Of a DNA stretch of 41,464 nucleotides, positions 5,519-41,464 are shown in pieces (positions within the stretch are counted from its first letter, which is position 1; each line of letters opens with the position of its first letter). The translations under genes were made by a program, and so were the position numbers. The stretch is taken from positions 1-41,464 of the forward strand of contig CANQBT010000003.1 in the NCBI GenBank assembly GCA_947589405.1, read 5' to 3'. The notes beneath the pieces are model-generated. The model searched no databases, was not told the DNA's origin, and was given only the letters and a program-made list of their open reading frames with translations. Origin of the DNA: an uncultured Clostridia bacterium (GTDB lineage Bacteria > Bacillota > Clostridia > Lachnospirales > CAG-274).

Positions 5519-6970
5519 ATGGAAAATATTACCGATATTAACCAGATAAAAATGGCGGTGCTCTGTAAAATTGCGGAGTATGCTTATGAAGGTACATTAG
5601 ATGACAAAAAGGACGGGATACCCGATGAGCTTACGGATCCCATAAAGCCCTCATTCCGCTGCTGTGTGTATAGGGAAAGGGAAATATTAAGGCAGAGAGT
5701 AAGACTTGGCATGGGTCGTCTGCCGGCAGGACTGCATTACAGCAATGAAAACGGCTCACAGATAGTATACGTTATGAAGGCAGCCTGCGAGGGCTGTCCC
5801 ATAGACCGCTTTACCGTTACAAACAACTGTCACAACTGCCTTGCGCAAAAGTGTATAAAGGCGTGTAAATTCGGCGCTATCACAAAGACTCCTCACGGCG
5901 CCTACATAGATAAATCCAAGTGCAAAAAATGCGGTCAATGCGTAAAGGCATGCCCCTACAACGCCATTGTGGATATTGAAAGACCTTGTATAAAGTCCTG
6001 TCCTGTTGAAGCGGTAGATATGGACAGCAACGACTTGGCCAAAATAGATACGAACAGGTGTCTTAACTGCGGTCAATGCGTTCAGAACTGTCCCTTCGGC
6101 GCTATAGGCACCGTATCAATGATGACAAATGTTATAAACTCCATTACAAGAGGTATACCCGTATATGCCATGATCGCACCTTCTATTGAAGGTCAATTCG
6201 GCACGGCCTCCATACCGGCTCTCAGAGCCGCTATAAAGGATCTGGGCTTTAAGGACTGCTATGAGGTGGCTCTCGGCGCAGATGCCGTAGCATGGAGAGA
6301 AGCCGAAGAGCTGGCAGAAAAAATACAGCAGGGCAAAAAGATGACCACCTCCTGCTGTCCTGCCTTCTACAATATGATACAAAAGCATTATCCCGAAGTA
6401 AGGGACTGCGTTTCAACAACCATCTCTCCCATGATGGCTACGGCAAGACTCATACGTGCAAAGGATCCCGATGCGGAGATAGTGTTCATAGGACCATGTA
6501 TCGCCAAGAAAAATGAAGTGGTTTCCAGATACATAGATGAAATAAATGCCGCCATGACATTTGACGAGCTTGGCGCTATGTTTACGGTAAAGAACATTGA
6601 TCCCGAAGAATATGAGGATACAGCTCAGGAGGCTACACGCTATGGCAAGGGCTTTGCCAAAAGCGGCGGAGTTGCCGCTGCCGTTGCCAAAGTATTTGAA
6701 GAAAAGGGACTTGAACCTCCTAAGCTTAAGGCATGCAACGGCTGGGCAGAATGCAAGGTCGCTTTGCAGATGCTCAAGCTTGGCAGACTTTCGGAGGACA
6801 TAATAGAGGGCATGAACTGTGAAGGCGGCTGTGTGAACGGTCCCTGCAAGCAGACAGACCTTATAATAAGCAGAAGGGTATTTGACAAAAACGTAAATGT
6901 GGATAAAACGGAAATAGTTAAAAATTGTATGGAAAATGGATTTGAAGATATAGAAATGCATAAGCATTAA
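5519..6970 (+). CDS. [FeFe] hydrogenase, group B type
   Basis: Iron-only hydrogenase (2H+ + 2e- <-> H2). The 483-residue protein has an N-terminal region rich in cysteine clusters (CEGCPIDRF, CHNCLAQKCIKAC, then two ferredoxin-type motifs CKKCGQCVKACP and CLNCGQCVQNCP), followed by the H-cluster domain. All three H-cluster motifs are present: TSCCPAF (about residue 276), GPCIAKKNE (about 323) and MNCEGGCVNGPC (about 432). TSCCPAF and the GCVNGPC ending are typical of the group B family rather than the classical bifurcating enzyme. No signal peptide, so cytoplasmic. Maturases HydE/F/G are not in the window. Direction of catalysis and electron partner are unknown; the preceding [2Fe-2S] protein is the obvious candidate. 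Confidence 0.92.
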   Translation: MENITDINQIKMAVLCKIAEYAYEGTLDDKKDGIPDELTDPIKPSFRCCVYREREILRQRVRLGMGRLPAGLHYSNENGSQIVYVMKAACEGCPIDRFTVTNNCHNCLAQKCIKACKFGAITKTPHGAYIDKSKCKKCGQCVKACPYNAIVDIERPCIKSCPVEAVDMDSNDLAKIDTNRCLNCGQCVQNCPFGAIGTVSMMTNVINSITRGIPVYAMIAPSIEGQFGTASIPALRAAIKDLGFKDCYEVALGADAVAWREAEELAEKIQQGKKMTTSCCPAFYNMIQKHYPEVRDCVSTTISPMMATARLIRAKDPDAEIVFIGPCIAKKNEVVSRYIDEINAAMTFDELGAMFTVKNIDPEEYEDTAQEATRYGKGFAKSGGVAAAVAKVFEEKGLEPPKLKACNGWAECKVALQMLKLGRLSEDIIEGMNCEGGCVNGPCKQTDLIISRRVFDKNVNVDKTEIVKNCMENGFEDIEMHKH

Positions 6971-19115: not shown

Positions 19116-19169
19116 AATAAGTATCAATAAAAAGATACCCATTTTCCCGTGACCAGGTCACGGGAAAAT
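19116..19169 (+). repeat. 54-nt direct repeat with two hairpins, copy 1
   Basis: Contains GTATC/GATAC (8-base loop) followed by the perfect palindrome TTTTCCCGTGACC-A-GGTCACGGGAAAA. The same unit, same orientation and length, recurs at 19911. It directly follows trpA and precedes the methyltransferase-like gene. Confidence 0.85.
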
Positions 19170-19188: not shown

Positions 19189-19887
19189 ATGTCATTCAAA
19201 CTTAAGAGCGTTGTGGCATGGGGCAGAAACGCAGATGAATATATTAATATGTTCAATATAACGTCGGCAGATATGGAATGTAAAATAGCAGGCTTTGGCG
19301 ACGGTCCCTCTTCATTTAATGCTGAGATGACGGCAAAGGGAGCAGATGTGACCTCCTATGACCCGATATATGCTTTCAGCGCAGAAGATATAAAAGACCG
19401 TATAGAAGATACACGCAATATTGTAATGGAACAGATGTCCCAAAATATGGACAATTATGTTTGGACAAATTTTAAAGGCTTGTCAGACCTTGAAAACACA
19501 AGAATATCTGCTATGAATAACTTTCTTTTGGACTTTGAAAAGGGGAAGAAAGAGGGAAGATATGTCGCCCATTCTCTGCCTGACAGTATAGATCTGCCCG
19601 ACAAGTACTATGATATAGGCTTAAGCTCTCATTTTTTGCTTATGTATACGGACTTGGGCTATGATTTTCATATAAGGGCTATAGATGAAATGCTAAGGCT
19701 GTGCAGAGAGGTAAGGATATTTCCCGTATGTGACCTTGACGGCAGGGACAGCAAGCTAATAAAAGATGTTATTGAATATTTCGACAGAGAGCACATAGTA
19801 GATATTTCTGAAACAAAATACGAATTTCAGAAAGCGGCTAATAAAGTGCTTAAAATAACCGATAGAAATGCAGCGAATAAAAACTGA
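19189..19887 (+). CDS. SAM-dependent methyltransferase-like protein
   Basis: A 232-residue soluble protein that I read as a class I methyltransferase fold. It has a glycine-rich SAM-binding region (IAGFGDGPSSFNAEM, about 33-47), an acidic residue after the next strand (VTSYDPIY), and the fourth-strand region YYDIGLSSHFLLMYTDLG followed by EMLRLCREVRIFPVCDLDG, where family members have a conserved motif. Motif I is atypical (GDGPS rather than DxGxGxG). The substrate is unknown. The ribosome site is weak (AGGTGAT). It is flanked on both sides by a 54-nt repeat and has no clear link to the trp operon upstream. Confidence 0.7.
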   Translation: MSFKLKSVVAWGRNADEYINMFNITSADMECKIAGFGDGPSSFNAEMTAKGADVTSYDPIYAFSAEDIKDRIEDTRNIVMEQMSQNMDNYVWTNFKGLSDLENTRISAMNNFLLDFEKGKKEGRYVAHSLPDSIDLPDKYYDIGLSSHFLLMYTDLGYDFHIRAIDEMLRLCREVRIFPVCDLDGRDSKLIKDVIEYFDREHIVDISETKYEFQKAANKVLKITDRNAANKN

Positions 19888-19910: not shown

Positions 19911-19964
19911 AATAAGTATTAATATAATAATACCGATTTTCCCGTGACCAGGTCACGGGAAAAT
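19911..19964 (+). repeat. 54-nt direct repeat with two hairpins, copy 2
   Basis: Same unit as at 19116. The first hairpin is GTATT/AATAC, a compensatory C-G to T-A change relative to copy 1, while its loop sequence differs; the second palindrome is identical. The last two codons and the stop codon of the opposite-strand apbE lie inside its 3' arm. Confidence 0.85.
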
Positions 19965-20939
19965 TTTTACTTTATCCTTGTTATCTACCCACACAACATT
20001 AAGTCCCTTTTCTTCGGCAATTTTTATGCCCTCTTCATAGGGGAGTATGAAAAGATAGGTGGAATAAATATCTCCCTCAAGAGAGCTGCTGCTTACTATA
20101 GTAACGGACTTATTGTTATCGGCAGGCAAAAGTGTGTCCTTATTTATTATATGGTGATATACCTTGCCTTCATACACGTAATATCTCTGATAATTTCCGC
20201 TTGAAACAGCGGCTTCGTTTTCTATATCCAGCTTGTATACATATTCTGAACTGCCTTCTGTTGGCTTTTGCACACCTATTTTCCATGAGGGCTTTACTTT
20301 ATCATTAAGACCTATTACATTCCCGCCTAAATTAAGCAGCCCGGCAGTTATGCCCTTTTCATTGAGATACTGTCTTGCCTTGTCGGCAGCATATCCTTTT
20401 GCTATAGCGCCTACGTCAATAGACGTGTTCTTATCCTTTATATATACGCTTTTGTCCTTTTCATTAAGCACAATGCTGTTTATATCCCTATGAAGCGCCG
20501 CTTCCTCAAGCTCTGCTTTGGTGGGAACAGCCGCCTTGTCGGGATCCGTCTCAGCCATTTCTCTGTAATCATGCCATACCCTCAGTACAGAGCCCATAGC
20601 TATGTTTATATAACCGTCTGTTTCATTATAGGCGTTTATGCCTTCCTTTATAAGAGCATACAAATCCTCGTCTACCTTTACGGGAGAAATCCCGGCATTG
20701 TCATTTATCGTTTTTAGATTTGAAATTCCTTCGTAATCGTTATAAATATCAAAGAGTTTATTGAGCCTTGCCATTTCGCTGTGAAGTCCTTCGGAGATCT
20801 CTTCAAACTCGCTTTGTGAAGAGCAATAGGCTTGAAAAGAGGTATAGGTATCAAACAGGTCAAAATACTGAGTGCTGTATTCCCTTTTGCCGCAGGCAGT
20901 AAGCATAAGCAGACACAAAAGCAATATGATTTTTTTCAT
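19953..20939 (-). CDS. apbE: FAD:protein FMN transferase (ApbE/FmnB-like lipoprotein)
   Basis: Attaches FMN covalently to Thr/Ser of extracytoplasmic flavoproteins, using FAD. 328 residues with a lipoprotein signal ending LMLTAC (Cys16), so anchored on the outer face of the membrane. Family marks: SSQSEFEEI region after YFDLFDTYTSF, DVGAIAKGYAADKA (FAD/Mg site), LNLGGNVIG, and SSGNYQRYYVYEGKVYHHIINKDT. Its start overlaps the end of the upstream membrane-protein gene (ATGA). The stop codon falls inside the 54-nt repeat. No protein with an FMN-attachment motif was found in the window, so its substrate must be elsewhere. Confidence 0.93.
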   Translation of the reverse strand: MKKIILLLCLLMLTACGKREYSTQYFDLFDTYTSFQAYCSSQSEFEEISEGLHSEMARLNKLFDIYNDYEGISNLKTINDNAGISPVKVDEDLYALIKEGINAYNETDGYINIAMGSVLRVWHDYREMAETDPDKAAVPTKAELEEAALHRDINSIVLNEKDKSVYIKDKNTSIDVGAIAKGYAADKARQYLNEKGITAGLLNLGGNVIGLNDKVKPSWKIGVQKPTEGSSEYVYKLDIENEAAVSSGNYQRYYVYEGKVYHHIINKDTLLPADNNKSVTIVSSSSLEGDIYSTYLFILPYEEGIKIAEEKGLNVVWVDNKDKVKIFP

Positions 20940-21445
20940 TTTACGCCCTCCTTAAGAGGATATGAAAGCACAGGCATAAGCGTTTTGAGAAGTACTCCCG
21001 TAATGCTGCCCATTACCACGCCCGAAGCTATAAGCACAGGCAGATACATATAGGCATAAGCATTGAGCATAAAGGAAACCGCTATTATCTGTCCTATATT
21101 GTGAAATATGGCGCCTGCTATGCTCAGTATAAGATAAGAGATACTGCTGCCGAAAAGGCGCAGAAGGAGTATTATAACAAGTATTGAAAGTATACCGCCG
21201 CATAAGCTCAGTATCCCTGCGACCGCACCTCTTGTGATAAGGGCAAAAAGTCCCTTTGCAATATTAAGGGCAAAGGCTTGTTTTTTGCCTATGAAAAATA
21301 CGGTAAACATTACCACAATATTGGCAAGCCCCAGCTTTACACCGGGTATGGCTGTAAAGGAAGGAAGCATTGACTCCAATATTGAAAGAACTATCGTAAG
21401 AGTCAAAAGCATAGCCATATATGTTAAATACTTTGTCTTATTCAT
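20936..21445 (-). CDS. Gx transporter / heptaprenyl diphosphate synthase component I family membrane protein (EetB-like)
   Basis: A 169-residue integral membrane protein with about five hydrophobic segments. It matches the Hpre_diP_synt_I / Gx transporter family (GVKLGLANIVVMF, ALNIAKGLFALITRGAVAG, GAIFHNIGQIIAV). The family name is historical; an ECF-substrate-binding-like or redox-linked membrane role is more likely. As I recall, the EetB protein of the Listeria extracellular electron transfer locus belongs here. It lies between a NusG-II protein and ApbE, with a 4-base overlap to apbE. Confidence 0.85.
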   Translation of the reverse strand: MNKTKYLTYMAMLLTLTIVLSILESMLPSFTAIPGVKLGLANIVVMFTVFFIGKKQAFALNIAKGLFALITRGAVAGILSLCGGILSILVIILLLRLFGSSISYLILSIAGAIFHNIGQIIAVSFMLNAYAYMYLPVLIASGVVMGSITGVLLKTLMPVLSYPLKEGVK

Positions 21446-21453
21446 ACTTCACC

Positions 21454-21819
21454 TCATAGGGACGCATCTACGCCGCTGTCAGATACTATCCTCAACACAA
21501 GTCTGTTTGGCAGACAGACGGCTGTCTGACCTTCTTGATCTATAAAGCCTGTATTTACACAGATCTTATCGGGACAATCCGAGCTTCTGAACCTTACGGC
21601 GCCATCTTTTACCTCAAACACCACATTGGGAAAGCCTTCGGGAGATACGGTTTTGTCCTCGCTCAGGTCAAGTGTCATTACAACACTATTGTTCAAAAGC
21701 ACCTCAGCCGTGTTTCCCTTTCTGCTCACAGCCTGTATGCCTATATACAAAAGCCCTGCCGCAGCCAGAACAGCGGCTATTATCAAAATATCCTTATATC
21801 TGAAAAAAGAATTATCCAT
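21454..21819 (-). CDS. NusG domain II-containing membrane-anchored protein (EetA-like)
   Basis: A 121-residue protein with a short N-terminal cytoplasmic stretch, one membrane helix (ILIIAAVLAAAGLLYIGIQA, about 12-31) and an extracytoplasmic NusG-II-type beta domain. The domain has the pattern SSDCPDKICVNTGFI...AVCLPNRLVL with three cysteines, typical of this stand-alone family; the cysteines may bind metal or form disulfides. As I recall, Listeria EetA is of this family. It is 4 bases behind the 66-aa gene and 8 bases ahead of the Gx-family gene. Despite the name it is not the transcription factor NusG. Confidence 0.87.
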   Translation of the reverse strand: MDNSFFRYKDILIIAAVLAAAGLLYIGIQAVSRKGNTAEVLLNNSVVMTLDLSEDKTVSPEGFPNVVFEVKDGAVRFRSSDCPDKICVNTGFIDQEGQTAVCLPNRLVLRIVSDSGVDASL

Positions 21820-21823
21820 AGCT

Positions 21824-22024
21824 CTACCACATTTTTACAATATCGTTTTCATCTATGCCGTACATTTTAATAAATTTCTTCATATCCTTATCGCTTTTAA
21901 CAGCCATAACATCAATAAACGTACCCTTTTCAATATCCTTGAAGCCCGCTACCTTTTCGCCTGTACATATGCTGCTCATTATTGCAGGCTTCATCTTTTC
22001 TCTGTCGTATTCCTTTTTAGCCAT
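21824..22024 (-). CDS. 66-residue conserved-looking small protein, function unknown
   Basis: The ORF track starts at 22063, but the ATG at 22024 directly follows GAGGTGAT, while the upstream candidate would overlap the -10 box; so 22024 is chosen, giving 66 residues beginning MAKKEYDREKMKPAI. It is soluble, basic-acidic mixed, with one cysteine (SSICTGEKVAGF) and a C-terminal segment MKKFIKMYGIDENDIVKMW. I recall similar small proteins in gut Clostridia, sometimes misnamed aspartate dehydrogenase, but no proven function. It is the first gene of the EetA/EetB/ApbE-like unit. Confidence 0.82.
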   Translation of the reverse strand: MAKKEYDREKMKPAIMSSICTGEKVAGFKDIEKGTFIDVMAVKSDKDMKKFIKMYGIDENDIVKMW

Positions 22025-22042
22025 AATATCACCTCTGCTATC

Positions 22043-22071
22043 AGTATAAACCATTTTATACAAATATACAA
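22043..22071 (-). promoter_or_regulatory. Promoter for the 66-aa/EetA/EetB/ApbE-like unit
   Basis: Minus-strand TTGTAT (22071-22066), 17-base spacer and TATACT (22048-22043). The predicted start is only about 12 bases from the ATG, leaving room for just the ribosome site. It shows the unit is transcribed independently of rlmH. Confidence 0.7.
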
Positions 22072-22072
22072 T

Positions 22073-22102
22073 GCAAAAAAATAAAGCGCTAAGGCTTTAT
22101 TT
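22073..22102 (-). terminator. Terminator of the murA-yycJ-rlmH unit
   Basis: Minus-strand AATAAAGC and GCTTTATT pair around CTTAGC and lead into TTTTTTT. The 5' arm includes the rlmH stop codon, so there is almost no 3' UTR. Confidence 0.82.
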
Positions 22103-35086: not shown

Positions 35087-38000
35087 TTATTGTTCCTTCT
35101 TTTTACGGAAGGTCAATGCAAGTACAGCAAAGGCTGCAATAAGTGAAGCCCATGCGATAGGAAGTGAAGTATTGTCACCTGTCTGTGGTGAACCGTTTCT
35201 GCCGGTTGAGCTTCCTGAACCATATGTTCCGCTGCTTCCCTCAGTACTTCCTCTTCTTCCGACAGTAGAAGCATTAGGTCTGTCGCCTGTCTTACCTGCA
35301 GTACCTGTGCCTACGGTATTGGCATTAGGTCTGCCTCTGCTGCTTCCTGCTGTTCCGTACTCGTCCTCATCATTCGGAGTTCCCGGAGTTCCGCCTGTAC
35401 GTATTGTAGTAGTTTCTGTTGTAAGCTCTGTACGTGGTGTGCCTCCGTTTACAGTAGTTGTTTCCGTTGTGGTTTCGGAAACGGTTGTTTCTGTAGTAGT
35501 TTCTGTAGAGCTCTCTGTGATCTCCGTTGTAGCTGCGGTGGTAGTTTCCGTTGTAGCCTCCGTTGTAGTAAACGTTGGAGTAGAATGTGGACGTCCGCCG
35601 CTTGGCTTTGTAGTTGTAGTTTCCGTAGCAGCTTCTGTTGTTACAACAGTTGTTGCTTCGGTAGTGGTCGTTGTCGGCTTAGGTCCCGGCGGTGGAGTAT
35701 ACGGCTTATCTGTTGTAGCCTCCGTTGTCGTTTCCGTAGTCGTTGTAGTTGTAGTTGTCGTAGTCGTAGTCGTTGTTGTCGTGGTCGTTGTGGACGTTGA
35801 CGTTGTCGTTGTAGACGTTGACGTTGACGTTGTTGACTCCGTACTTGTTTCCGTTGTCGTCTGCTTTGGCGGAGGCGGTGGAGTTGGCTTAGTCGTAGCC
35901 TGTGTAGTGGCTGTAGACGTTGTGGTCTCCGTACTTGTCTCCGTTGTAGTCGTAGACGTGGTCGTTGTTGTCGTAGTCGTTGTTGTGGTTGTCGTCGTTG
36001 TTGTCGTAGTCGTTGTGGACGTTGACGTTGTTGACTCTGTACTTGACTCCGTTGTTGTCGTATCCTTTGGCGGAGGTGGAGGAGTTGGCTTAGTCGTAGT
36101 CTGTGTAGTGACTGTAGACGTTGTTGTCTCCGTACTTGTCTCCGTCGTGGTCGTAGACGTTGTGGTAGTCGTTGTAGTGGTCGTTGTTGTTGTAGTTGTT
36201 GTCGTTGTTGTTGTAGTTGTTGTTGTTGTTGTTGTAGTTGTTGTCGACGTCGTTGTTGTCGTTGTCGATGTAGACGTAGTCGTTGTGGACGTTGACGTTG
36301 TTGTCTCCGTACTTGTTTCCGTTGTAGTCGTGGACTTTGGCGGAGAAGGCTTTGTTGTAGCCTGAGTCGTTGTAGTAGACGTTGTGGTCTCTGTACTTGT
36401 CTCCGTTGTAGTCGTGGACGTTGTGGTAGTCGTCGTCGACGTCGACGTCGTTGTCGTAGTTGTTGTAGTTGTAGTTGTCGTAGTCGTAGTTGTCGTTGTA
36501 GTCGTCGTAGTCGTTGTAGACGTTGATGTTGTCGTTGTGGACGTTGTTGTCTCCGTACTTGTCTCTGTTGTAGTAGTAGAGGTTGACGTTGACGTTGTGG
36601 ACGTTGACGTTGACGTTGTCGTCTCTGTAGACGTTGACGTTGACGTTTCTGTGGTAGTCTCTGTAGATGTTTCTGTCGTGGTTTCTGTAGTGGTCTCTGT
36701 AGATGTCGTAGTAGATATTTCCTTATTGTTTATATCTACGATACCCTTATTGTTATCTCCTTTAAGCTCTACAGAATTATTGGTATAATCAATATCCACT
36801 ATACCGTTTACGCCCTGTTCAAGTATCCTGCCGTTAATATCGGTCTCATATACGATGTACTGAGTACCGTTTTCAACATCGTAAGGCAGATTCTTGAATA
36901 CGACCTTATCCTTTGTACCTTCGGCTGAACCCTTTATCGTAAGGCTCTTTATAGAGCTTATTCTTACAGGCTTGCCGTCTTTCATTTCAAATACTGCAAA
37001 ATAGAATGTCTTTCTGCTGTTTGTATCGGAAACAAAGGTCTTGTTAAGTGTAATTTCACCATCATCGCCCTTGCTCTTTACCCATACGCCGACCTTTGCC
37101 GGCTCTGCAATAAGTCTTTGCTTCATTATTGCCTGAGGACCTACCGCCCTTGTAAATGAGTAAGCAAAGTTGTTCCATGCAATGTTGCTCTCGCCAAGAG
37201 TCGTAACGACCTCGGGAACACGTCCCGTAAACTTGATCTGTACACCTGCGCCTGCAGGTATCTGATATTCACTGTCAAAGAGGAATCTTACAAGAGAAGT
37301 ATTTTCTCCCGGTGAGGTGCTCCAGTCAGTAATATACTGGCTTCCGCCTGCCCAGTCCTCCGCATTCTCGTCATTGAATGTGGTTACTCTGTCGTCTGAG
37401 AAGTTAAGAGTGACCTGAGGATGATCCTCCTGACCGTTAGGCTTTGTAACGGTAGTTGAGATATAGTCATCCCATGCTACGTCAAACTTAGAATCTCTTG
37501 CATAATCCGTAATGACGCCAATATCGCCTACAAATGGCAGTCTGTCTATTACAGAGAAGTTCTTTATAGCAACATTTGAATTATTCTTAATGTTAAGAGT
37601 ATATGTAACTGTTTCACCCTGCATACCCTGAACATAGTTGTCGGGCTCATCTTTATAGCTGTAGCCCGTGTCTTCAACAGGGTCGTACTTGTGACCATCA
37701 GGTGTGTATTCTATTTCCTTCCAGGACTCTGTGGCAAGACCTAATATATTGAATGTGCCGCTGGAGCCTAATCCGCCTTCTATCTCGTGGCCGGAAGGTA
37801 TGTTCTCATCATCATATCTGCCTGATACCTTAAGAGCAACATCGTTCTTTATAACGCCCGTCTTACCTGCAAGACCTGACTTCATCTTTGTTGCAAAGGA
37901 GATCTCAATAAATTCACCGGGCTGAAGGTCGAACTCACGCATTCCTGTAAAGTCCCAAACGGCTATATCCTTTCTTTCCTCTTCGGGAACGGAAGGATCT

Positions 38001-41000
38001 GTGCTGCCCTTTATAACAGTAGCATCAATAAACGGAAGCTCTGTTCTTTCGCCTGTCAGCTCGTTTGTCTTATAAATATTGGGTCGCCAGTTTATAAGGC
38101 TGACATCATCAGCATTCATGTAGGTATATATGGCAGGGATACTATCCTCTACCTTATAATCCTTCATCACGGAGCCGCCGCCCTGTTCATCTGCTTCGTT
38201 TATTACAGCTATAGTCCATACTATACTGTCACCTGCGGTAACAACGCCGCCTACATTATTAAGAGTAGGTGAAGAAGCGGCAAATGAGCCTATACCCCTC
38301 TTGCCAACTCCCGGATGCATAGTTTCTTCCTTAACGGTAATGGTTTTCTTTACGGTCTTTTTTGTAGTGACCTCTCCTTCAGGAGTTTCAAAAGCATTGT
38401 TTGCCGTTATGGATACGGAATTGCTTACGTCTGACTGCTGTATGTAATACTTGCCGTCAACTACCTCTGCTGATGACACAAGCTTTTCTATCTCATCTTC
38501 GGTAAGCTGAGTTACATAGAATATATATGTAGGCTTCTTGCCATGATATATCTTAAAGTCATCGGGGAAAGTCACCGTAAATACGGAACCCGGTTCTTCA
38601 TTGTAATCAATTTGGGCTTGGTTATATATATAGAAATTATCGTCCTGCTCATAGTAAGCAGCATGTACCTCTATAGTTATATCTCTCCAGCCGTCCTCAA
38701 GCCTCTTCACAAGCTTCATGCCGTCAGGTATCTTATCATTGACTACAAGCTTACCTGCGTCATAGTCCTTTTCGCTTAAATTTTCAAGACTTATGACATA
38801 GCTGAATCTCATATCTCTGAGATACTGTCTCAGCTCCTCCTCAGAAGTTGCTTCCTTAACATAGAGATTATCCTTATCGGTAAAATGTCCGTTTTCGTCC
38901 CTAATAGGATTGCCGCTTTCATCTACCGCTACGGCTTCCTTCTTTATGTCAAGCACAGGATTGGAAGTGTTTACACCATAGTTGACTGTGACATTATCGC
39001 CGCCGTTTACGGATACCGTATTGGCACCAATTGTAAAATCCGCCTTAAGCTTAAGAGAATACTCAAGCTCTATATATCCTCCGGGCAGTACGCTAAAGCC
39101 CGGAATGCTGTTTACAACAGAGCTTACATTTCCGCCGGTGGTCGGACCTGAGCTTGAAGGACTGTTGGGATCATCGGAATCATAGTACTTAATATCTATT
39201 ATTCCGATACCGTACTGCATATTGGGGAATGTGTACTTATCGCCCTTTGTCACTCCGTTGATCTTGCTTACATCTGTAACAACAATATCAACGGGACCAT
39301 CGGCAGTCATTTTGTCTGCATTTGTGAGAACATCGTGTATTTCAAGATAATTAAATGTTTCAAGGGTATTGTTGTATACCTTTATCTTGAACTTAACATA
39401 TTTATCAAGATTTTCTTCCGGAAGCTTGCCGCTTTCCGTAACATCGTTGCCCTCATAGTCATATACATGCTTTTCAACGTCCAGCTTAACATTGGGATCG
39501 GGAACTGTTATTGTTCCTCCGGGACCTTCGCCGCCGCCCTTGTCGCTGTCTGTTTCAAATGTACCGTCCTTAAGTATGGCAATATTGTGTATTGTAGAGT
39601 TGACCTCTGCATCTTCTGCAACCTTTGCCTTTACGGTAAGTGTAAATTCCTGATTGCCATCTACCTTGCCTACATACTTAAATGTTATCTTTCTTGAATC
39701 GCTGTCATACTCTCTTGTCCAGCCCTGTGTTCCCTGAGCCTCTATATACACAAGACCATCGGGAAGTTCGTCCTCTACTATAAGAGGGTGCTCCTCTGTA
39801 TATTCGGCAGGAGAGTTCTGATTATTCTTTACCTTTATGGTATATGTAACCGTTTCGCCGGGCTTAACACGGCTGTTATCGGGAGTCTTTGTTACTATCC
39901 AGTTTTCGGGATTGAACTCATTCCTGGTATGGGTTACGGTAGATTCGCCTTCCTTTTTGCCGTCCGCCCAAAGCTCAGCCGTATTCTTAAGACTGTTGGG
40001 ATTGGCACTCTCAAAGCCTTCGTTTACAGCTACGGGAATGGTTATTGTAATATATCCCTGTGCAGGAAGATTTGTGACCTCAACGGAAATATTCTTTCCA
40101 TTTGTGTTATCTGTATATTCAACTCCGTCGCTTATATCTATTTTAATATCCCCTGCAATATCTACAAAATCGGGAAGTGCGTCCTTTATCTCATGAGGTA
40201 CAGTCATATCGCCTGTGCCTGTGTTCTTATAGGTGATAGTGTAGTCGAAAACATCGCCCTTCCTTATGAAATCCTTGTCGGCTTTCTTTTCAAATGTGGT
40301 GGAAGGAGTCTTTTTCTTAACCTCTATATCTTCTTCTACTTCCTTATCATAGGAATTGCTTGTAAGCTTTGCTGTATTTGGGATACTTGCGTCGCTGTCG
40401 TCCTTTACCTTTAATGGGATATAGCCTGCAAGTATACCATCTGGGTCTATATTTGAACCTTCAAATATGATCCCGTTGTTTTCATAATCATAATTTAAAT
40501 GGCAGCTGCTGCCCGAGTTACTGTTGTTTTCCATTTTCACCCATGCAACATAATCCTTGCCATTCACATTGAATGTGGAAAGTGAGCCTATATTCAGATT
40601 CTGATTATTCCAATCACTAAAATACTGCTTATATGCTTCAAGCTCATCGGCTGTTACAAACTCCAGTCCCTCAGGGATCATATCCTCGAAGCTGTGGCTG
40701 TAAAGAACATCGGTACCGTTGTTCTGAGATGTTATCTTATAAAGAATAATATCTCCTTCAACCACATAGCTGTTTGGATCCCAATCCCCTGTATAAGTGC
40801 CGAACTTGTCGGCTACATCGGAAATTGACTTTGTAAGAGCGTTTGCCAGCTCTGCATCGAACTGTCTGGGACGTGAAAGCAATATAGACGTATCTGCGTC
40901 ATTTTCCAGAACATGCTCTCCGTCAAAATAGTCGGTATATGTAGTCTTGAGCTTTGAGCTTACAGATGTTTCATTTTCAAATCTTTCGTCAAATGAAACG

Positions 41001-41464
41001 CTGTCCTTGCTTATTCTTACCTTTGGCTTAAAGCAGTCCATCTGCTTTTCGGGATATTCCTCAAGGTTAGGATTTTCAACAGTACCCCTTACGGTAAAGC
41101 CTGTTATCCTGCCCTCACCGTCTGTAACGGGAGTTATTTCTGCACCCTCAAGATTTTCTACGCTTACGGCAGAATTAATATCCGTACCTGCGGGAAGATA
41201 CATTCCCTCAGGAAATTCGTAGGTATTCTCAACAGTTACCTTCTTTGTATAAATTGTGCCTTCTGATGTCCATGTAGGATCATATTCGTTAAGTTCTTCA
41301 TTATAAAGGCTCTTGTCGTACTCAATTATGTTGAATACAAGGTCCTCAGGAAGCTTATATTCTCCCTCAGTCACCTGCTGAAGAACGATCTTGTCCTTGT
41401 CGGGCCATTGGTCGTGATCCCACTTAGGCTCTGCCGTTGCGGATACGGAAGCGCTTACGTCCGT
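35087..41464 (-). CDS. Giant wall-anchored surface protein, DUF11-like repeats and Thr-rich stalk (5'-truncated)
   Basis: The ORF track starts at a GTG (41374), but the frame stays open to the right edge (TDVSASVSATAEPKWDHDQW...), so the N-terminus is outside; at least 2125 residues are visible. About six DUF11-like beta domains follow each other (each with xGDxVxYTIxxKN and a later ExxLPDGL or IPDGM), then a CnaB-like domain (LNKTFVSDTNSRKTFYFAVF), then a stalk of about 420 residues made mostly of Thr with Ser and Glu and several Pro-rich breaks (KPTPPPPPK). The end has a sorting signal: SPQTGDN, a hydrophobic helix and RKKKEQ. The protein is probably anchored by a class of sortase recognising PQTG and acts in adhesion. 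No sortase gene is in the window. Confidence 0.9.
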   Translation of the reverse strand, partial: TDVSASVSATAEPKWDHDQWPDKDKIVLQQVTEGEYKLPEDLVFNIIEYDKSLYNEELNEYDPTWTSEGTIYTKKVTVENTYEFPEGMYLPAGTDINSAVSVENLEGAEITPVTDGEGRITGFTVRGTVENPNLEEYPEKQMDCFKPKVRISKDSVSFDERFENETSVSSKLKTTYTDYFDGEHVLENDADTSILLSRPRQFDAELANALTKSISDVADKFGTYTGDWDPNSYVVEGDIILYKITSQNNGTDVLYSHSFEDMIPEGLEFVTADELEAYKQYFSDWNNQNLNIGSLSTFNVNGKDYVAWVKMENNSNSGSSCHLNYDYENNGIIFEGSNIDPDGILAGYIPLKVKDDSDASIPNTAKLTSNSYDKEVEEDIEVKKKTPSTTFEKKADKDFIRKGDVFDYTITYKNTGTGDMTVPHEIKDALPDFVDIAGDIKIDISDGVEYTDNTNGKNISVEVTNLPAQGYITITIPVAVNEGFESANPNSLKNTAELWADGKKEGESTVTHTRNEFNPENWIVTKTPDNSRVKPGETVTYTIKVKNNQNSPAEYTEEHPLIVEDELPDGLVYIEAQGTQGWTREYDSDSRKITFKYVGKVDGNQEFTLTVKAKVAEDAEVNSTIHNIAILKDGTFETDSDKGGGEGPGGTITVPDPNVKLDVEKHVYDYEGNDVTESGKLPEENLDKYVKFKIKVYNNTLETFNYLEIHDVLTNADKMTADGPVDIVVTDVSKINGVTKGDKYTFPNMQYGIGIIDIKYYDSDDPNSPSSSGPTTGGNVSSVVNSIPGFSVLPGGYIELEYSLKLKADFTIGANTVSVNGGDNVTVNYGVNTSNPVLDIKKEAVAVDESGNPIRDENGHFTDKDNLYVKEATSEEELRQYLRDMRFSYVISLENLSEKDYDAGKLVVNDKIPDGMKLVKRLEDGWRDITIEVHAAYYEQDDNFYIYNQAQIDYNEEPGSVFTVTFPDDFKIYHGKKPTYIFYVTQLTEDEIEKLVSSAEVVDGKYYIQQSDVSNSVSITANNAFETPEGEVTTKKTVKKTITVKEETMHPGVGKRGIGSFAASSPTLNNVGGVVTAGDSIVWTIAVINEADEQGGGSVMKDYKVEDSIPAIYTYMNADDVSLINWRPNIYKTNELTGERTELPFIDATVIKGSTDPSVPEEERKDIAVWDFTGMREFDLQPGEFIEISFATKMKSGLAGKTGVIKNDVALKVSGRYDDENIPSGHEIEGGLGSSGTFNILGLATESWKEIEYTPDGHKYDPVEDTGYSYKDEPDNYVQGMQGETVTYTLNIKNNSNVAIKNFSVIDRLPFVGDIGVITDYARDSKFDVAWDDYISTTVTKPNGQEDHPQVTLNFSDDRVTTFNDENAEDWAGGSQYITDWSTSPGENTSLVRFLFDSEYQIPAGAGVQIKFTGRVPEVVTTLGESNIAWNNFAYSFTRAVGPQAIMKQRLIAEPAKVGVWVKSKGDDGEITLNKTFVSDTNSRKTFYFAVFEMKDGKPVRISSIKSLTIKGSAEGTKDKVVFKNLPYDVENGTQYIVYETDINGRILEQGVNGIVDIDYTNNSVELKGDNNKGIVDINNKEISTTTSTETTTETTTETSTETTTETSTSTSTETTTSTSTSTTSTSTSTTTTETSTETTTSTTTTSTSTTTTTTTTTTTTTTTTTTTTTTTTSTSTTTTTTSTTTTETSTETTTSTTTTQATTKPSPPKSTTTTETSTETTTSTSTTTTSTSTTTTTTSTTTTTTTTTTTTTTTTTTTTTTTTTTTTTSTTTTETSTETTTSTVTTQTTTKPTPPPPPKDTTTTESSTESTTSTSTTTTTTTTTTTTTTTTTTTTSTTTTETSTETTTSTATTQATTKPTPPPPPKQTTTETSTESTTSTSTSTTTTSTSTTTTTTTTTTTTTTTTTTTETTTEATTDKPYTPPPGPKPTTTTTEATTVVTTEAATETTTTKPSGGRPHSTPTFTTTEATTETTTAATTEITESSTETTTETTVSETTTETTTVNGGTPRTELTTETTTIRTGGTPGTPNDEDEYGTAGSSRGRPNANTVGTGTAGKTGDRPNASTVGRRGSTEGSSGTYGSGSSTGRNGSPQTGDNTSLPIAWASLIAAFAVLALTFRKKKEQ
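35460..36720 (-). repeat. Low-complexity Thr-coding repeat region
   Basis: In the coding frame nearly every codon is ACN (Thr), with TCN (Ser) and GAA/GAG (Glu) in a loose TETSTETTTSTS pattern, and at least three breaks of the type TTKPTPPPPPK. One uninterrupted Thr run is about 29 codons. Third bases vary (ACA, ACG, ACT, ACC), so this is not a pure trinucleotide repeat. Length variation between strains is likely. Confidence 0.9.

Follow-up and report, generated by a model that had tools for sequence, protein, structure and literature searches.

The eetA-eetB-apbE cluster of an uncultured Clostridia bacterium as a likely kit for supplying flavin to the Rnf complex and attaching it there

Results

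The window analysed here, by which we mean the whole stretch of 41,464 nucleotides, belongs to the MAG of an uncultured Clostridia bacterium (G000; 1.97 Mb, 88% complete) and contains four closely spaced ORFs on its minus strand. Read along that strand, these are a 66-aa ORF (22024-21824), an eetA-like gene encoding 121 aa (21819-21454; Pfam NusG_II, 96.4 bits, 1.4e-27), an eetB-like gene encoding 169 aa (21445-20936; Pfam PF07456, Hpre_diP_synt_I, 118.6 bits against a cut-off of 30, 3.1e-34) and an apbE/fmnB-like gene encoding 328 aa (20939-19953; Pfam ApbE, 226.8 bits, 4.6e-67). The ORF coordinates and Pfam matches bear out both the order given in the initial annotation of the window (66-aa ORF, NusG_II protein, Gx-family membrane protein, ApbE lipoprotein) and the family names EetA, EetB and FmnB/ApbE that it had used. 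The 66-aa ORF is separated from eetA by 4 nt and eetA from eetB by 8 nt, eetB and apbE overlap by 4 nt, and eetA, eetB and apbE are direct neighbours (19953-21819); rlmH flanks the cluster on one side and a convergent neighbour on the other. When the four ORFs were compared with those of one congener, codon positions 1 and 2 were 78-96% identical and position 3 was 47-68% identical, and since positions 1 and 2 change more slowly than position 3, all four look like real genes.

The cluster had also been credited with a promoter of its own. The intergenic gap after rlmH (22025-22096, minus strand), a putative cluster leader, has at its upstream edge a weak hairpin with a T-run (z -1.5) that reaches into the end of rlmH and makes a separate transcript plausible. 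A promoter scan upstream of the cluster returned 13 promoter-like sites against 13.0 in shuffled sequences and lends the promoter itself, plausible as it is, no support. At the other end of the cluster, a hairpin with a perfect 13-bp stem (19936-19964, minus strand; -18.9 kcal/mol, z -5.5) contains the apbE stop codon and is a likely terminator. A 50-bp stretch occurs in two near-identical copies (19120-19169 and 19915-19964), both of which contain a perfect hairpin (ATTTTCCCGTGACCAGGTCACGGGAAAAT). The copies, the second of which includes the apbE stop codon, flank an orphan 232-aa ORF (19189-19887) with no significant Pfam match. Paired copies of this kind were not seen in the other loci that we fetched, and because congeners have a gene resembling purine nucleoside phosphorylase after apbE, the copies are possibly the scar of a rearrangement. 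Elsewhere, the window encodes a 483-aa iron-sulphur protein (5519-6970) that by eye resembles an iron-only hydrogenase-type protein with ferredoxin-like 4Fe-4S motifs, and a 2095-aa protein (35087-41374) that looks cell-wall-anchored and has long Thr-rich repeats, the opposite strand of which contains spurious valine-rich ORFs.

The 66-aa ORF, which the initial annotation had counted as a member of the cluster, has no Pfam match, and NCBIfam gave nothing useful for it, for EetA or for EetB. Relatives of the gene are present in 25 of the 48 genomes of the family. Within the genus, it adjoins eetA in three of five members (G000, G007 and G008), whereas in the other two (G005 and G006) it and eetA-eetB-apbE are on separate contigs, and at the loci that we read in other genera its relatives stand alone. 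Across 80 eetB loci, the gene was found at one (L080). Its products form a family of 64-75 aa with a SIC[TN]GE...GF motif, mostly encoded alone (loci L005-L030). We therefore rejected the 66-aa protein as a fourth member of the module, because the gene, conserved and adjacent as it is here, is usually unlinked to eetA.

The EetA-like protein consists of one N-terminal transmembrane helix, as read from the sequence, and an extracytosolic NusG_II domain whose solved relatives are 4esn, 2kpp, 4obi and 3ld7. An alignment of the EetA family (A2) contains three invariant cysteines (C82, C87 and C102, in the motifs DCPDxxC and CLP), which could form a metal, thiol or flavin site; the first two of them are missing from Lin0431, a NusG_II structure of Listeria. 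A profile of the EetB family matched RibU (3p5n) over its full length (E=0.002). The AlphaFold model of EetB (pLDDT 91.5) is that of a membrane protein with six long helices, and its best matches in the PDB were RibU and other ECF S-components (TM about 0.65, probability 1.00, E only about 0.01). From its Pfam family, the profile match and this model, EetB is predicted to be an ECF S-component resembling the riboflavin S-component RibU and to act as an FAD-export subunit. The ApbE protein is a lipoprotein with the lipobox LTAC (N-terminus MKKIILLLCLLMLTAC) and has the conserved motifs AKG, HHI and GD..ST; its best solved relative is the FAD:protein FMN transferase 7esa (E=6e-39, aligned over residues 67-324), which we take to be Listeria FmnB.

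The genome of G000 encodes ApbE, EetA and EetB once each and has a single FMN_bind protein. This last is RnfG, whose gene follows rnfC and rnfD in a block at the end of contig C42. The rnfA and rnfB genes lie on contig C134, and RnfE presumably falls in the assembly gap between the two, since rnfCDGEAB is intact in the congener G008. The search for FMN-attachment proteins and Rnf genes that the initial annotation had proposed thus yields a single FMN_bind protein and the genes rnfCDG, rnfA and rnfB, and the genome does encode a candidate for an exported flavinylated protein. Thr166 of RnfG (TGAT motif) aligns with the FMN-bearing Thr164 of Clostridium tetanomorphum RnfG, and Thr169 of RnfD aligns with the FMN-bearing Thr153 of its counterpart in the same organism. 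Each of the near-complete congeners G005, G006 and G008 (97-100% completeness) likewise has one FMN_bind match, and the FMN_bind protein is RnfG in both G000 and G008, in which we read it. No PplA-like protein was found in these four genomes by the FMN_bind search, which overlooks flavinylated proteins too divergent to match that family.

The genes for EcfA, EcfA' and EcfT lie beside truA on contig C22 (names assigned by eye, except that of EcfT), and the other CbiQ match of G000 is within a CbiMNQO-like cobalt module. Only this general EcfT and the cobalt-type CbiQ, and no dedicated ECF-T (FmnA), were found in the 88% complete MAG, and EetB therefore probably shares the general EcfAA'T module. 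There are 14 Pyr_redox_2 (PF07992) matches in G000, a family too broad to stand for Ndh2; within the window we noticed no Ndh2-like ORF, and the prenyl synthase genes DmkA and DmkB are absent at the cluster.

We screened 116 genomes of the order for EetA, ApbE, FMN_bind and RnfD. EetA (above cut-off) and ApbE were each found in 93 of them, FMN_bind in 96 and RnfD in 92. EetA and RnfD occurred together in 88 genomes and were both missing from 19, leaving nine discordant genomes (EetA only in five, RnfD only in four; Fisher p about 1e-13, uncorrected for shared ancestry). Where a genome had a single FMN_bind match (42 genomes), RnfD was always present (42/42) and EetA nearly always (40/42). Of the five genomes with EetA and no RnfD, G131 is without any FMN_bind protein and the remaining four encode other members of that family, which suggests that the gene set has, or could have, additional targets. 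G131 and G113, which are congeners of each other, have ApbE (and, in G131, EetA) without an FMN_bind or RnfD match, and this pattern hints at an unrecognised flavinylation target.

Gene neighbourhoods provided a second view of the association. Within 10 kb of the 80 eetB loci, taken from genome contigs, EetA was encoded at 58, ApbE at 50 and rnf genes at 23. The rnf-linked loci were often contiguous, and several had the arrangement apbE-eetA-eetB-rnfCDGEAB; Clostridium tyrobutyricum and C. magnum are among the relatives with eetB beside rnf. In a tree of EetB from loci that left out Listeria EetB, the rnf-linked state was scattered (13 changes by parsimony, at least 7 of them forced by well-supported branches). 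The linkage between eetB and rnf has therefore formed or broken repeatedly, which fits a functional tie between the two. In G000 and its genus, eetA-eetB-apbE is not adjacent to rnf.

Discussion

Taken together, RnfG as the sole FMN_bind protein, the co-occurrence of EetA with RnfD and the linkage of eetB to rnf in relatives favour the tie to Rnf that the initial annotation had suggested as one option, and we consider it very likely that eetA, eetB and apbE constitute a kit that supplies flavin cofactor to the Rnf complex and attaches it there. In the mechanism that we propose, EetB and the general EcfT-EcfA-EcfA' module would carry FAD outward across the membrane, EetA would act as a membrane-anchored, extracytosolic putative partner, and the ApbE lipoprotein would use the FAD to attach FMN to the threonines of RnfG and RnfD; the flavinylated Rnf complex would then couple ferredoxin:NAD+ electron transfer to the pumping of ions. 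An extension of this scheme, which we regard as doubtful, is that in this genus flavin import and EetB-dependent FAD export are both powered by a single EcfAA'T module and that EetA, with the three invariant cysteines of its extracytosolic domain, is the factor that hands FAD over from EetB to ApbE.

The scheme has a precedent in Listeria monocytogenes, in which EetB binds FAD and the export of flavin to FmnB requires EetB along with EcfAA' and the ECF-T FmnA, whereas deletion of eetA had no phenotype (PMC9973259). The two systems have the EetA (PF07009), EetB (PF07456) and ApbE families in common, as well as the ECF S-component fold of EetB and the lipoprotein nature of ApbE. In contrast to the Listeria locus, the cluster described here is without FmnA, Ndh2 and PplA, no dedicated ECF-T was found in the genome, and the predicted target is Rnf and not PplA. 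Another parallel is provided by those Clostridia in which eetA-eetB-apbE lies beside rnfCDGEAB, which have the same gene set and the same presumed target, the difference being that in this genus the kit is apart from the rnf operon. The Rnf complexes of Clostridium tetanomorphum (7ZC6) and of Acetobacterium woodii (9ERI, as we take that entry to be) are counterparts of the recipients and not of the kit; their RnfG and RnfD are clear homologues of those in G000, with the FMN threonines conserved.

We weighed three other readings against this one. The same three families and an ApbE whose closest solved relative is 7esa, presumably Listeria FmnB, could be taken as signs of a reduced Listeria-type pathway of extracellular electron transfer, in which a dehydrogenase passes electrons via quinone to a surface protein that carries flavin, from which they reach iron or electrodes. 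This is very unlikely, since G000, G005, G006 and G008 have one FMN_bind match each, with no PplA-like protein found by that search, the proven role of EetB is the export of FAD for flavinylation, and eetB homologues accompany Rnf as often as they accompany extracellular electron transfer systems (PMC9973259). On the same grounds, the flavin-based module for electron export, whether reduced or of another type, that the initial annotation had proposed is not supported, the single FMN_bind protein found being RnfG and EetB being of a family whose studied member is an FAD exporter and not an electron carrier (PMC9973259).

It is quite unlikely, if somewhat easier to entertain, that the kit flavinylates another, unrecognised exported protein besides or instead of Rnf: such a target would account for ApbE in G131 and G113 (with EetA in the former) where FMN_bind and Rnf are lacking, and in other bacteria EetB also neighbours further ApbE systems, but in G000 the Rnf targets are present and no other FMN_bind protein was found. 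Going by the former Pfam name of PF07456 and by earlier annotations of loci of this kind (PMC7074142), the eetB-like gene would encode heptaprenyl diphosphate synthase component I, and the cluster would belong to quinone or isoprenoid synthesis. This can be almost entirely discounted, given a six-helix membrane model that is closest to RibU and other ECF S-components and a Listeria relative that binds FAD in experiments and is needed for flavin export (PMC9973259).

Seen as a supply of flavin to Rnf, the cluster is most likely the ordinary set already described in many Clostridia and not a new route of electron export. That apbE is coupled with rnf clusters had been observed earlier (PMC7074142), and a 2023 study described FAD export to ApbE driven by EetB, with Rnf among the main partners in Clostridia; in that study eetB homologues most often accompanied Rnf and extracellular electron transfer systems, and occurred with Rnf in 572 genomes, especially of Clostridia (PMC9973259). 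The presence of EetA, EetB and ApbE in an anaerobe is thus by itself no evidence of extracellular electron transfer, and in Clostridia these proteins often mark the supply of FAD to Rnf. Because the target complex (RnfG/RnfD), the transferase and the exporter are each present once, G000 offers a clean system in which to address the role of EetA and the question of which ECF-T exports FAD.
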